The notes beneath the pieces are model-generated. The model worked only from the letters and a program-made list of their open reading frames with translations, did not search any database and was not told the DNA's origin. A stretch of 47,025 nt of DNA from Acidobacteriota bacterium (GTDB lineage Bacteria > Acidobacteriota > UBA4820 > DSQY01): assembly GCA_040752915.1 (NCBI GenBank), contig JBFMHB010000017.1, positions 1 through 47,025 on the forward strand. The letters run 5' to 3'. A program made the translations under genes and the position numbers. Position 1 is the first letter of the stretch, and every line of letters starts with the position of its first letter. Of this stretch, positions 11,677 to 47,002 are shown piece by piece.

Positions 11677-12533
11677 GGGGCCGGTGAGGTCCCCGTCAGG
11701 AGCGCGATGAGACGAACGAGGGTCTCCCGAAGCTGGTTGCGGTGGATCACCAGGTCGAGAAAGCCCTTTTCAAGGAGGAATTCGGAGCGTTGGAACCCTT
11801 CGGGCAGCTTCTGGCGGATGGTCTGCTCGATCACCCGTGGGCCCGCAAAGCCGATGAGGGCCTTGGGTTCCGCCACGTTCACGTCTCCAAGCATGGCGAA
11901 GGAAGCCGTGACCCCGCCCGTCGTCGGATCGGTCATGACGGAGAGGTAAGGCAGCCCCTCCTCGTGAAGGCGGGCGAGGGCCGCCGACACCTTGGCCATC
12001 TGCATGAGAGAGAGGACCGACTCCTGCATCCGGGCCCCGCCCGAGCAGGAGACGACCACGAGGGCGGCCCGCTCGGCGGCGGCCCGCTCGGCGGCGCGCG
12101 TGATCTTCTCGCCCACGACGCTGCCCATGGATCCGCCCATGAAGGCGTACTCCATGCAGGAGAAGATGACGGGGAGCCCACCCATCTTTCCCCGGGCGTT
12201 GAGGACGGCGTCCTTCATGCCCACGGACTTCTGGTACTGGGCGAGGCGGTCCGAGTACTTCTTCAGGTCCTTGAATCCGAGGACGTCCTTGGGGCCGACC
12301 TCCGAATCCAGCTCCTCGAATTCGCCCCCGTCGCAGAGCATCTGGAGGCGCTGCCGGGCGGAGATGCGGAAGTGGTAGTCGCACTTCGGGCAGACGTTGT
12401 TGTTTTCCTCGACGGTCTGGGAGAAGAGGACCTGCCCGCAGTTCTCACACTTGCTCCACAGACCGGCCGGTACCTTGACGGAGCGCTCCTCCCCATCCTG
12501 CACTTCCGGCTTTTTCTTCTGCCGAAACCACAT
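11673..12533 (-). CDS. accD: Acetyl-CoA carboxylase carboxyltransferase subunit beta
   Basis: AccD forms, with AccA, the carboxyltransferase that makes malonyl-CoA for fatty acid synthesis. The 286-residue protein begins [11 protein letters not shown], followed by the zinc ribbon CENCGQ...[11 protein letters not shown] typical of bacterial AccD. The crotonase-fold core includes [30 protein letters not shown] and [18 protein letters not shown]. The start ATG at 12533 has GGGGAG eight bases upstream; the frame stays open far upstream, but that is the shadow of the PASTA gene. A candidate promoter lies just upstream. It overlaps folC by one codon. accA is not in the window. Confidence 0.97.
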
Positions 12534-42011: not shown

Positions 42012-44516
42012 CTACTTGAGATCGCTCCAGCGCTTTCCCACGCTCGTCCCGGCCACGAGGGGGACCTTCAGCGGAAGGGCGGCCTCCATGGAGTCCTTCA
42101 AGATCTTCGCCACCTGAGGCGCCAGGGCCTCCGGGGCCTCCACGATGAGTTCGTCGTGGACCTGGAGCACCAGGCGCGCGCCCTGGGGCAGGCGGGGCTC
42201 CACCTCCACCATGGCCTTCTTGATGAGGTCCGCGGCGCTGCCCTGGACGGTGGTGTTCACGGCCTGGCGGATCAGGGCCTGCTGGAGGGGCTTGGCGGCG
42301 CGGGCGATGCCCGGGAAGAGCCGGCGGCGCCCGAGGATCGTCGTCACCTCCTCGGCCGCGAGGACCGACTCCACGACCCCGTCCACGTAGGCCCTCACCC
42401 GAGGGAATCGCGCGAAGTACCGTTCGATGAAGGCCTTGGCCTCCTTTTGCGAAACCCCAAGCTCCCGGGCCAGGCCGAAGGGCCCCATGCCGTAGAGGAC
42501 GCCGAAGTTCACCGCCTTGGCCTGGCGGCGCATGTCGGGCGTGACGAAGGGCGGGGCCACGCCGAAGACCTCCGAGGCCGTGGCCGTGTGGATGTCCCGG
42601 CCCTCCGTGAAGATCCTCGCCAGGGCCTCGTCCCCCGAGAGGTGGGCGAGCATGCGCAGTTCGATCTGGCTGTAGTCGGCCCCCGCCAGGAGGTGCCCCT
42701 CGGCGGCGAGGAAGCCGCGGCGGATGCGCGGCCCCCACTCGCCCCGCGCGGGGATGTTCTGGAGGTTGGGGTCCGAGGAGGAGAGGCGCCCCGTGGCCGC
42801 CACGGTCTGGTGGAAGGCCGCGTGGATGCGCCCCGTGGCCGGGTCCACCTGCTGGGGCAGGGTGTCCACGTAGGTGCCCTTGAGCTTGGCCAGCATCCGG
42901 TGGTCCAGGATCAGGCCCACCACGGGGTGGGCCTCCCGGAGGGCCTCGAGGACCTCGCTGTCGGTGGAGTAGCTCTTGGTCTTCGAGGTGCGCTTCTGGA
43001 CGGGCAGGTTCAACTTCTCGAAGAGGACCTCCCCCACCTGGCGGGGGCTCGCCACGTTGAACGACAGGCCCGCCGCCGCGTGGATCCGCCCCTCCAGATC
43101 CCTGAGGGCCCCGCCCATCTCCTCGCCCAGCCTCTGGAAATAGGCCGAATCCACCGCGACGCCGGCCGCCTCCATGCGAGCCAGAACGGGGATGAGCGGC
43201 CCTTCGATCTCCTCGTAGAGGCGTCCCATGCCCAGGCGCACCAGCTCGGCCCGCAGGGCCGGCGCCAGGCGGGCCAGGAGGAGGGCCTGGAGGGCGGGGG
43301 GGCCGCCTTCCGTCCGGAGGGAGAGGAACCGCTCCGAAAGGTCCGCCACCGAAGGCACCCGGGCCGAGGGGTCCAGGAGATACCCCACCACCGCCGCGTC
43401 CAGCGCCCCCGGTCCCGGAAGGAATTCGGAGGGCCCCATCCGCCGCAGGAGGCTCTTCAGCCCGTGAACGCACAGGGGCAGGCGGGCGAGGCGAGGCGCA
43501 TCCGGGGCTTGGGAGGAAAGGACCCACACGCCGGAGCCGTCCGAGAGGAAGATCTCCTCCTCGGTCCAGGCCATCCCGACATCGCCCGCGCGGGAGAGGG
43601 CCTCCCACCCGGGGCCGTCCAGCGGTCGCGCGGAGGGGGCCTCCGCGCCGGGCGGAGGGGCCTGGCCCGGATCGGGCACCACGAGAGAAGAGAATTCGTA
43701 CTCCCGAAAGAGGGCCTGGAGGCGCTCCCGATCGGGGGCGGCCAGCCGCAGGTCTTCCAGCGGAATGTCCACGGGCGCGTCCGTGCGGATGGTGGCGAGG
43801 TCCCGGGAGAGGCGGGCCTGGTCCGCGAACTGCAAGAGCCCCTCCCGGTAAGCCTTGCGGGTCACCTCGGCGGCGTGGCCCAGGACCGCCTCCAGATCCC
43901 CGTACTGGCGCACGAGTTCCTTGGCGCCCTTCTCGCCGATCCCCGGAACGCCGGGGATGTTGTCCGTGGGATCGCCCCAGAGGGCCAGCACGTCCACCAC
44001 GCGCTCGGGCGGCACGCCGAAGACCTCCTCCACTCCCTTCTCGTCGAGGAGGGCGTCCTCCTTCTTCGTGTGCAGGACGCGCACCCCCGGCCGGACCAGC
44101 TGGAAGAGGTCCTTGTCGGCGGTGACGATGACCGCCTCCATTCCCGCCTCCACGGCGCGCCGGGCCAGCGTCCCGATGAGGTCGTCGGCCTCGTACCCCG
44201 GCGTTTCGAGGAGGGGAAGGCCCATGGCCCTCAGGATCTCCTTCGCCGGCTCGATCTGCCTCGCCATGTCGTCGGGCATGTCGGGGCGGTTGGCCTTGTA
44301 GGCCTCGAAGGCCTCGTGGCGGAAGGTGGGCGCGGGCGTGTCGAAAACAAAGGCCACGCGCTCCGGGCGGTGGTCCTTCAGAAGCTTCTCCGCGATCTTG
44401 AGGGTGCCGTAGATGGCGTTCGTGGGCCGGCCGTCGCGCGTGGAGAGGCTCCGGATGGCGTAAAAGGCCCGGAACAGGATCGACGAGGCGTCCACGAGGT
44501 ACAAGGTCTGAGCCAT
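42012..44516 (-). CDS. polA: DNA polymerase I, apparently without active 3'-5' exonuclease
   Basis: An 834-residue family-A polymerase. Residues 1-290: 5'-3' exonuclease (LYLVDASSILFRAFYAI, DTPAPTFRHEAFEAYKANR, GYEADDLIGTLA, VTADKDLFQLV, GDPTDNIPGVPGIGEKGA). Residues about 450-834: polymerase with motif A ADYSQIELRMLAHLSGD, motif B RRQAKAVNFGVLYGMG and motif C QVHDELIVEAP. The middle domain has the fold outline of a 3'-5' exonuclease (VVGYLLDPSARVPSVADLSERFL), but the DxE start is replaced by AWTEEE and the second Asp position is missing. Proofreading is probably lost, as in Taq polymerase. Start ATG at 44516 with GGAG seven bases upstream. It converges with thyX. Confidence 0.96.
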   Translation of the reverse strand: MAQTLYLVDASSILFRAFYAIRSLSTRDGRPTNAIYGTLKIAEKLLKDHRPERVAFVFDTPAPTFRHEAFEAYKANRPDMPDDMARQIEPAKEILRAMGLPLLETPGYEADDLIGTLARRAVEAGMEAVIVTADKDLFQLVRPGVRVLHTKKEDALLDEKGVEEVFGVPPERVVDVLALWGDPTDNIPGVPGIGEKGAKELVRQYGDLEAVLGHAAEVTRKAYREGLLQFADQARLSRDLATIRTDAPVDIPLEDLRLAAPDRERLQALFREYEFSSLVVPDPGQAPPPGAEAPSARPLDGPGWEALSRAGDVGMAWTEEEIFLSDGSGVWVLSSQAPDAPRLARLPLCVHGLKSLLRRMGPSEFLPGPGALDAAVVGYLLDPSARVPSVADLSERFLSLRTEGGPPALQALLLARLAPALRAELVRLGMGRLYEEIEGPLIPVLARMEAAGVAVDSAYFQRLGEEMGGALRDLEGRIHAAAGLSFNVASPRQVGEVLFEKLNLPVQKRTSKTKSYSTDSEVLEALREAHPVVGLILDHRMLAKLKGTYVDTLPQQVDPATGRIHAAFHQTVAATGRLSSSDPNLQNIPARGEWGPRIRRGFLAAEGHLLAGADYSQIELRMLAHLSGDEALARIFTEGRDIHTATASEVFGVAPPFVTPDMRRQAKAVNFGVLYGMGPFGLARELGVSQKEAKAFIERYFARFPRVRAYVDGVVESVLAAEEVTTILGRRRLFPGIARAAKPLQQALIRQAVNTTVQGSAADLIKKAMVEVEPRLPQGARLVLQVHDELIVEAPEALAPQVAKILKDSMEAALPLKVPLVAGTSVGKRWSDLK

Positions 44517-44639
44517 TCCGGTCTCCCGCAGGGTCTCCATTGTAGCGCCAATCCAGGCCCTCCGGGCGGCCCCCCTTGGCCGCTCTCCTCGAAGTCCTCC
44601 ACGGAAGCGGCCTTTCTGACCTGCATGGGCCGGCATCTC

Positions 44640-44659
44640 GGCCGATGCAACCATCGGCC
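44640..44659. repeat. Palindromic repeat with GGCCGATG arms
   Basis: GGCCGATG, a four-base loop (CAAC) and CATCGGCC. The same arm sequence forms the palindrome at 46901-46920, so it looks like a dispersed element. Confidence 0.6.
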
Positions 44660-44792
44660 TATACCAAGGCCAGTTCGCGCCCCTTGACGCTCCCCGTGGA
44701 TCACCGGTGGGCGGATTCCCCTGTGCTTTCAAGGGGACCGCTCAACGTGTCCTTTAAAACCTAGACCACCGCGAGCGAAGGCTGTTACTAAT

Positions 44793-44961: not shown

Positions 44962-44992
44962 GGGGAAATGTGTCAATACAAGACCTGACCCC
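44962..44992 (-). repeat. REP-like motif of the kind linked to IS200-type (RAYT) transposases
   Basis: The minus strand begins GGGGTCAGGTCTTGTATTGA and continues to a matching run ending in TTTCCCC, so the ends are complementary. From memory, very similar GGGGnCAGGTCTTG motifs accompany REP-associated tyrosine transposase genes in many genomes. No transposase is present here. The motif supplies the last codons of the membrane protein gene. Confidence 0.45.
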
Positions 44993-45323
44993 TTTTGCTT
45001 TTGTCTTCTTCGCTTGTACCCTTGATCTGCCTAAAATGAACTATTGAAAGTGCCAGGAAATAGCTGCCTAGAATCGCGGCGAGCAGAATACCTGTAATGT
45101 CTTTATGATGGAACAATAACGCCGATGAAATGGCGAGGCCAATCACCAAATTCAATAACGCTCCAACGTGATGACTGTATTTGGTTGAGCTTAGGCGCTT
45201 TGCTTTGTAGAAAGATGCGTAGGCCATAGGGCACAGCAGTACGAGAAGGACAACAACGGCCAGTATTGTCCAACCAACATTCATACCTGTTGAGACTTCG
45301 GTACCGACATTTAGGAGGACCAT
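44973..45323 (-). CDS. Small membrane protein, three predicted helices, unknown function
   Basis: A 116-residue protein I do not recognise. Three hydrophobic segments are evident: VGWTILAVVVLLVLLCPMAYASFY (residues about 17-40), VGALLNLVIGLAISSALLF (53-71) and ITGILLAAILGSYFLALSIV (76-95). A charged tail, EEDKSKRGQVLY, follows; its last six residues are encoded by a REP-like motif, so the original C-terminus is probably lost. The base composition is clearly more AT-rich than the flanking chromosome. The ATG at 45323 lies 22 bases after the attC-like site, with AAGGAG ten bases upstream, as expected for the next gene of an integron cassette series. No 3' attC-like site is seen. Confidence 0.6.
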   Translation of the reverse strand: MVLLNVGTEVSTGMNVGWTILAVVVLLVLLCPMAYASFYKAKRLSSTKYSHHVGALLNLVIGLAISSALLFHHKDITGILLAAILGSYFLALSIVHFRQIKGTSEEDKSKRGQVLY

Positions 45324-45344: not shown

Positions 45345-45422
45345 GCGTAACGTTGCGGTTGACCCGCCCGTGAAGGCGGGCGAAGCCCGCCGGAACGGGT
45401 CGGGTCGAGCCGCGGGTTAGGC
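45345..45422 (-). other. attC-like integron recombination site (78 bp)
   Basis: On the minus strand the site starts with the R'' box GCCTAAC (45422-45416) one base after the stop codon of the 385-residue gene, and ends with GTTACGC (45351-45345), a near match to the R' consensus GTTRRRY. Between them, GCGGCTCGACCCG pairs with CGGGTCAACCGC apart from a small bulge, and the centre is a hairpin GGCGGGC-TTC-GCCCGCC. Boxes, extrahelical bulge, length and position after a gene all fit attC. Confidence 0.72.
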
Positions 45423-45423
45423 G

Positions 45424-46581
45424 TCATTCTGGCCAATTCTCACTAAGACCAAGTACTTCGCGAAAGGTCTCTCCGGCGTTGTGCTGAATTCGATCGTTCA
45501 CGACTTTGGCATTGGGCATCCGTAGAAAGGAGTCAGGTAGCTGAAGGTTTGCCCAGGGGTTCACATAGAGCGTATGCCTTCTGCGCGCAAGTGTGTATGG
45601 GGAGAGATTGCTGAATAGCCACGCGCCACTACACCGAGTTCCGCGTGGGCCGGAAGGCCCTCGCCATGCGCCATTCGGGGCGCGCTCAAAGCGCGGTTCA
45701 TCCTGCTCTGCGCCGACGGTGAAAATGAACTGCTCCTGGCCGAATAGAGCCTGCGCTTCGTCGATTGGATCAAGGTTGAAGGTATCCACATTGACCGCCA
45801 CAACCAATGGCAAGTCAAGCACACCGTACCATCGTGCCTTAGACAGTACCGCTTCGCGAATCGGGGTCCAGGTGTCAATAAAGCCGGCGCCGAAGTTACG
45901 CATCCCAATCAGGCGCCGCGGTAACCTCCGAGCTTCAGGCTTCACAGGGATGGCGCGTACCCGGACTCGCCAGTCCTCGTGCTGCCACTGGAATTCGGGC
46001 AAGGCTGCGTAGTTATCGGCCGACTCGGCAATGACGAGGTCTGGGTCGAGCGTGTCAAGCCACCGAACAACCTCAGTCGCTAGGCGCCTGCCGCTAGGTT
46101 GTGTTGCGGGGTCGCCTGTGGAATCAACGGCCACCATGAAGGAATGGTGATAGGCGGAATCAAGCACCTGCAAAGCGACGGCCTTCCGGGCTTCCGACGG
46201 TACGTCCCGACCATCATCGTCCGACGCGCAGACTGCCTCTAGGTAGAGCTGACTGCCGTCGGGGCAGGTAATGCAAAAATCGGGTCGGGTTGACGATCCA
46301 TTCGGCAGCTCGGGGTGAGGTGTCAGCGCGAATCCCAATCGTCGCAGGTACTCGTGTATGAACAGTTCGAACGTCCCGGAGGCGAAGTGGCGAGGGTCAC
46401 CTGAGCGGAGACGCGCGATTAGTTCTGACTGTTCCGCAGTGGGGTAATTCTCCAAACAGACCTCCAGTAACGACCGAACCCTATCGGCGGCAGGCCAAGC
46501 GCATCGGTCTAAGAAAGCGAACTCAGTTTCTGTCGCGCGCTTAGGATTGTGATCGGTGCGAGCGGTTGTGCTGAATAGCAT
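45424..46581 (-). CDS. Unknown 385-residue protein with PD-(D/E)XK-like patch, in an integron-type cassette
   Basis: No family name can be given with confidence. Residues about 70-115 read ELFIHEYLRRLGF, HPELPNGSSTRPDF and then YLEAVCAS. The spacing PDF...YLEA resembles a restriction-endonuclease-like fold, although the usual E-x-K lysine is missing (EAV). The remainder is alpha/beta with VRVRAIPVKPEARR and a later NPWANLQLPDSFLR. Codon use and GC are lower than in neighbouring genes. The ATG at 46581 is only seven bases after an attC-like box, and the stop lies one base before another attC-like site. This is how integron cassettes are built. A role in defence or DNA handling is a guess. Confidence 0.65.
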   Translation of the reverse strand: MLFSTTARTDHNPKRATETEFAFLDRCAWPAADRVRSLLEVCLENYPTAEQSELIARLRSGDPRHFASGTFELFIHEYLRRLGFALTPHPELPNGSSTRPDFCITCPDGSQLYLEAVCASDDDGRDVPSEARKAVALQVLDSAYHHSFMVAVDSTGDPATQPSGRRLATEVVRWLDTLDPDLVIAESADNYAALPEFQWQHEDWRVRVRAIPVKPEARRLPRRLIGMRNFGAGFIDTWTPIREAVLSKARWYGVLDLPLVVAVNVDTFNLDPIDEAQALFGQEQFIFTVGAEQDEPRFERAPNGAWRGPSGPRGTRCSGAWLFSNLSPYTLARRRHTLYVNPWANLQLPDSFLRMPNAKVVNDRIQHNAGETFREVLGLSENWPE

Positions 46582-46588
46582 TTGTGAC

Positions 46589-46668
46589 GGCTAACTACCA
46601 ATAGACGGCCGTGATAGCCCGCTGACATGGCGGGCTATCACTGGCTTGCCGCCTATCAGAACATAGGC
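46589..46668 (-). other. Second, degenerate attC-like site (80 bp)
   Basis: Minus strand: GCCTATG (46668-46662) to GTTAGCC (46595-46589). Inside, TAGGCGGC pairs with GCCGTCTA (one G-T pair), and a perfect 12-bp hairpin, GTGATAGCCCGC and its complement, fills the centre. The R'' box is imperfect. Length matches the first site, and the start codon of the 385-residue gene follows at once. Confidence 0.5.
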
Positions 46669-46894
46669 TGATACTGGCAACTGTATGTGAGTCATGTAGA
46701 TAGCCCCCCTTCTGTCAGCCTCCCAGGATAAGCCCGCCAGGTTAGGCTGCCCTTTTCAAGGCCTAGACCCTTCACGCGGCCGGCCGACCCGTTGGCCTCT
46801 CTCCGTTGTTTTCCCCTGCCGGTGGCTTCGATTCTGCCCCGTTCGATTCGGCGTTTCAAGCCTCCTCCGTACTTACCGTCGCGGGGATTGTCTT

Positions 46895-47002
46895 CGTAGC
46901 GGCCGATGCTCGCATCGGCCGAAGGGCCGGCCCTTGGCGAGCAAGGGCCGCTACGGTGGAGGCCTTCGTGGGGGGAGGGCGCGGGGGCCCTCCCCTACGA
47001 AG
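46895..47002. repeat. Composite palindrome cluster
   Basis: An outer inverted repeat (CGTAGCGGCC at 46895-46904, GGCCGCTACG at 46946-46955) encloses the palindrome GGCCGATGC-TC-GCATCGGCC (46901-46920) and GGCCCTT...AAGGGCC. A second hairpin follows: CTTCGT (46964-46969) and ACGAAG (46997-47002) flank GGGGAGGGC / GCCCTCCCC-like arms. No genes are seen. Confidence 0.6.

Follow-up and report, generated by a model that had tools for sequence, protein, structure and literature searches.

We identified a lone integron-type gene cassette at one end of the window analysed here, which is the whole of contig C17 (47,025 nucleotides) of a 3.07-Mb Acidobacteriota genome assembled in 153 contigs. Our main reading, to which we give a probability of roughly 0.6, is that an integron integrase placed this cassette in the spacer between hemD and polA and that the cassette encodes a distant PD-T7-5-like protein with a putative role in phage defence. 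The integrase would have integrated the cassette at a secondary chromosomal site, or within an array since lost, in a genome that carries its own integron on another contig. In the encoded protein, a PD-(D/E)XK-type core at the N-terminus would be followed by a conserved C-terminal half; the protein may act as a single-gene phage defence, in which the C-terminal half would sense infection and the core would cleave nucleic acid, stopping the phage through degradation of its DNA or death of the infected cell. Against this reading stand the upstream site of the cassette, which fails as an attC, the missing ExK lysine, the pLDDT of 42.7 of the structural model, and the join between C17 and contig C74, which falls in a repeat.

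The cassette and its ends

The cassette gene is a 385-aa open reading frame on the - strand (45424..46581). As the sequence-only reading had correctly described, its start codon lies 7 bases past an R' box GTTAGCC (the junction reads GTTAGCC-GTCACAA-ATG on the - strand), and its stop codon TGA is followed by 1 base and then by an R'' box GCCTAAC. The same reading had remarked on a composition unlike the surroundings, and GC per kb indeed amounts to 0.55-0.60 in the cassette region versus 0.60-0.73 across the remaining window. Taking the cleavage point from general knowledge of integrons and the positions of the two R' boxes, we delimit a putative cassette of 1244 bp that runs from the TT of the upstream R' to the G of the attC R' (45351..46594, - strand). 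An Rfam search of the cassette region returned zero matches, and promoter and terminator scans gave no more matches than shuffled sequence.

Two attC-like sites, of 78 and 80 bp, had been proposed to bound the gene, and one of them held up. The 78-bp site that closes the cassette (45345..45422, - strand; R'' GCCTAAC, R' GTTACGC, with an extrahelical base in the 5' arm) is a genuine attC in the orientation of the cassette gene, as it passes both a covariance model and a separate box-plus-stem score. The model was trained on 16 other attC sites, drawn from plasmids with class 1 integrons, a plasmid of the cyanobacterium Kovacikia and the array on contig C11 of the same genome, with both window sites left out of training. 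Across the 47 kb the 78-bp site was significant at 20.0 bits (E=0.0034, - strand), and with filters off in 44-47 kb it reached 20.1 bits on the strand of the gene versus 4.9 on the opposite strand. Its box-plus-stem score of 40.4 falls among those of known attC sites (28.9-44.3), while R'-like sites elsewhere in the window, with both strands counted as a measure of chance, score at most 30.5.

The 80-bp candidate upstream (46589..46668, - strand) forms a strong hairpin (fold z=-5.6) with a degenerate would-be R'' box, GCCTATG, that lacks the AAC. It is not confirmed as an attC: its box-plus-stem score of 20.5 lies well within the chance range (<=30.5), and the covariance model gave no significant match there with filters off in 44-47 kb. 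This silence is weak evidence, since the model run without filters also gave no match at the known 115-120-bp attC sites, and the box-plus-stem score is the better test. A covariance model census of the whole genome was uninformative, as it too missed the attC sites of C11. We also scored the upstream site in a 159-bp version and discarded it.

The 5' end of the cassette is supported instead by comparison with a homologue from Rhodoferax (L009, 66% identical). The DNA upstream of the two genes is unrelated up to the R' box, after which GTTAGCCGTCACAA is identical, and matches per 10-nt block from -80 to the start codon number 2, 3, 4, 2, 1, 2, 7 and 10. Because identity begins at the GTTAGCC box, and not because of any upstream attC score, we consider this R'-like box, 7 bases 5' of the start codon (46589..46595, - strand), to be the probable 5' cassette junction. 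The box is identical in Rhodoferax, reads GTTGGCC at the same place in a Pseudomonadales copy (L010), and matches the end of one repeated attC site in this genome's own array. Upstream of the Rhodoferax copy, a GTCCAAC...GTTAGCC hairpin has a box-plus-stem score of 27.9, inside the chance tail, and is only suggestive as an attC. A homologue from the same phylum that is 33% identical (L033, G082:C345) carries a perfect R' box, GTTAGGT, ~10 bases ahead of the first ATG, but its upstream sequence yielded no convincing attC.

The hemD-polA spacer

The left flank of the insertion is polA (42012..44556, - strand; the reading frame runs from 44732 and the start was chosen near 44556), which is 63-77% identical to homologues in the same family. 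At the other end, the last 89 bp of the contig (46937..47025, + strand) are 100% identical to C74:1-89, which leads to hemD and hemC. These three genes lie together in the same-family genomes G032 and G018, in which hemD and polA are adjacent without the cassette gene. Between the ends of the hemD and polA alignments lie ~143 bp in G032 and ~35 bp in G018, compared with about 2.86 kb here, and the cassette appears to sit within an insertion of ~2.7 kb between the two genes. As the join between C17 and C74 falls in a repeat with 31 genomic matches, this placement is carried by synteny and not by the overlap alone. The sequence-only reading had named more sites upstream as support, but no additional cassettes follow; C17 most likely continues into hemD and hemC.

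The insertion contains further elements on both sides of the cassette. Beyond the 3' side of the attC lies a hydrophobic reading frame of 116 aa (44973..45323, - strand), possibly a second cassette, for which we found no attC of its own and no homologue among plasmids. At its 3' end is a dispersed repeat, GGGGTCAGGTCTTGTATTGACA (44971..44992, - strand), with 9 genomic matches at <=3 mismatches versus 0 in the control, which resembles transposase-associated REP elements. A dispersed palindromic repeat lies at the insertion's right edge (46880..46990, + strand), to which the 31 genomic matches belong, and a related inverted copy occupies 44568-44668. Several copies of GGGGTCAGGTCTTGTATTGACA occur within a few hundred bases of a repeat of the 46880-46990 type, and several of the 31 matches of the latter family lie at contig ends; this family probably causes assembly breaks.

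These repeats raise the alternative that there is no cassette, that the gene was brought in some other way, for instance along with the palindromic repeats of the spacer, and that the attC-like hairpin is one more repeat. Dispersed repeats at both ends of the insertion and the failed attC score of the upstream site (46589-46668) speak for such a route. However, no chance site in the window scores as high as the 78-bp site, which lies in the orientation of the gene and 1 base past its stop codon, and the 5' junction is common to a homologue from another phylum. We regard a non-cassette route as improbable and favor integration of a cassette.

Distribution of the gene

Had homologues been present in relatives in the same chromosomal setting without an attC, the case for a mobile cassette would have suffered. 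The gene is instead absent from 8 other genomes of the same family and 4 of the same order, and occurs in 6 of 396 genomes of the phylum including its own, the other copies being 29-34% identical. Its best homologues come from Rhodoferax (66%), Pseudomonadales (64%), Acinetobacter plasmids (53%), Pseudomonas plasmids (51%) and Gallionella (47%), those of Rhodoferax and Pseudomonadales being from MAGs. Even there it is sparse, at 2 of 399 genomes in the order of Rhodoferax and 2 of 369 in the class of Pseudomonadales, and a search of viral contigs and phages gave no homologue of the protein.

This patchy distribution across phyla fits a rare gene that was probably acquired by horizontal transfer. 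Absence from family and order, 64-66% identity in other phyla and the insertion between hemD and polA all point to mobility between genomes, and the 3' attC, the insertion relative to related genomes and the homologues in other phyla together support the proposal of a mobile gene cassette.

The integron on contig C11

The genome encodes a single IntI above cut-off, at C11:53368-54312 (450 bits; cut-off 265). As it lies on another contig, no integrase adjoins the cassette, in agreement with the sequence-only reading, and the locus is not a complete integron. That reading had further considered an integrase-less attC cluster (CALIN), for which the default rule is at least two attC sites (PMC9024848); here one of two sites passes, and the label does not apply. 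The locus resembles a CALIN or a single attC without integrase, as classified by IntegronFinder (PMC9024848), in combining an attC and a cassette gene without an adjoining IntI, but differs from a CALIN in having one confirmed attC and in belonging to a genome with an intact IntI on another contig.

Spread over ~10 kb, C11 carries six attC-like repeats, most of them 115-120 bp long, which differ from the 78-bp site of the window. It is a real chromosomal integron (L012 8600-18098 and L001; about 42.6-54.5 kb) of a less usual layout, in which the attC-like sites lie downstream of intI and on the same strand. Genes in its cassette region include DUF3644, two alpha/beta hydrolases, a bestrophin-like protein and DUF6794. 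A decayed second copy of intI lies at 45.9-46.5 kb of C11 (L005; L012 about 11930-12450) and includes a 181-bp stretch 96% identical to one that adjoins the intact intI. Of 13 genomes of the order, 6 have an IntI above cut-off, as do the genomes that carry the three nearest homologues.

The presence of this IntI, together with the tendency of draft assemblies to break integrons (PMC9024848), could mean that the cassette is a piece of a larger array split by assembly, with the C11 enzyme as its integrase. We consider this very unlikely, because C17 overlaps C74 with its hemD and hemC, as in the gene order of relatives, and the 115-120-bp attC sites of C11 are unlike the 78-bp site. An arrangement of C11 and C17 as the two ends of one array was rejected on account of the C17-C74 overlap, the position of the C11 array downstream of intI and its other type of attC. 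The window holds a lone cassette and not a hidden array.

The cassette protein and PD-T7-5

The cassette protein belongs to no Pfam or NCBIfam family, and PDB sequence searches returned chance matches only, with no solved relative; it appears to represent an unnamed protein family. The PADLOC profile of PD-T7-5 (PDLC04110) matched it weakly (E=1.2e-5) and weakly matched all family members tested (11/11). Comparison by hhalign of the cassette family with a PD-T7-5-like set, consisting of proteins from the class of the Pseudomonadales copy, gave 97.3% and E=2.2e-11. The unrealigned Viterbi path is colinear over residues 36-354, but confident realignment stops near residue 124, within the N-terminal third. 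BLASTP of the cassette protein against PD-T7-5 was not significant.

PD-T7-5 is said to have been presented by Vassallo et al. in 2022 as a single-gene anti-phage system. The cassette protein is like it in size and in an E...PD...EA nuclease core, and on the unrealigned path the C-terminal blocks of the two families run colinearly (K...Y, VVAVN/VIALA, ALFG/ALYG and NPWA/NPFA). They differ in their low identity and in extra residues of the cassette family after the core, between the core and the C-terminal half, and the activity of the cassette family is a predicted one. PD-T7-5 has been reported to contain a PD(D/E)XK domain (PMC10952713).

Family alignment revealed E72, E115, A116, R218 and K248, among others, to be invariant and D101 nearly so. 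E72, D101 and E115 make up a conserved PD-(D/E)XK-type motif from which the ExK lysine is absent, the position reading E-A-V/T/C in all members. The predicted order of helix 63-81 and strands 85-88, 102-105 and 111-115 fits a PD-(D/E)XK core in a low-confidence AlphaFold model (four sequences, pLDDT 42.7), which is too poor as a basis for a fold search.

The missing lysine is a real weakness of the nuclease reading, and the protein may have lost nuclease activity or never had it, with a PD-(D/E)XK-like fold that serves binding, a toxin, immunity or another function. The E-A-V/T/C of all members and the want of a solved relative speak for this alternative, which we nevertheless judge unlikely, though less so than a non-cassette route: E72 and E115 do not vary and D101 hardly varies, and the PD-T7-5-like set is missing the same lysine. 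K248, a conserved residue that aligns between the two families, could take its place. The best reading remains a horizontally acquired cassette that encodes a putative PD-T7-5-like PD-(D/E)XK defence nuclease, and the earlier suggestion of a PD-(D/E)XK-type protein with a possible anti-phage function is supported.

Gene neighbourhoods of homologues

In Acinetobacter the gene comes immediately after the nucC gene in a type III CBASS operon (cyclase, HORMA, TRIP13, NucC). NucC is itself of PD-(D/E)XK type, like the cassette protein, but belongs to another family, and the cassette protein has no cyclase partner here. This adjacency suggests that the protein could be a CBASS accessory component that has been split off in our genome, a reading that we consider highly improbable. 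No cyclase, HORMA or TRIP13 lies beside the copies of the window, Rhodoferax, Pseudomonadales, Gallionella or Pseudomonas, and many Acinetobacter plasmids retain only about 126 residues of the gene after the CBASS genes. A linked CD-NTase is likewise lacking in the window insertion and was found with Acinetobacter copies only. Because the linkage is seen on plasmids from only a handful of related lineages, it weighs hardly more than a single event.

In the other hosts, the Rhodoferax copy is followed by a type IIG restriction enzyme (restriction-modification), ordinary genes surround the copies in Pseudomonadales and Gallionella, and the Pseudomonas plasmid neighbours that were tested had no PADLOC match. 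No attC or known defence neighbour was seen in the surrounding sequence examined for L010, L011, L016 and several homologues from the phylum.

Integrons are already established as carriers of phage defence, as PMC12444791 indicates in citing Darracq, Getz and Kieffer 2025. Like those anti-phage cassettes of chromosomal and mobile integrons, the window cassette is an integron-borne likely defence gene without Pfam annotation; it differs from them in lying outside an array, in its non-Vibrio host and in a defence role that is putative. It gives integron-borne phage defence a concrete, testable candidate whose host is distant from Vibrio, exemplifies a cassette settled outside the array, and suggests a function for a Pfam-less family that hospital Acinetobacter and Pseudomonas carry on plasmids. 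There is a moderate chance that this is a new defence family. We propose more tentatively that it is an undescribed, stand-alone anti-phage nuclease family related to PD-T7-5, in which an insertion is added and K248 serves as a displaced catalytic lysine. The family would travel through environmental bacteria as an integron cassette and, independently of this, accompany CBASS and BREX on clinical Acinetobacter plasmids. On the latter (L081, NZ_CP090385.1, and similar Acinetobacter plasmids), the shortened copy of ~126 residues lies between the type III CBASS and BREX genes, and such shortened copies adjoin a chloramphenicol efflux gene.
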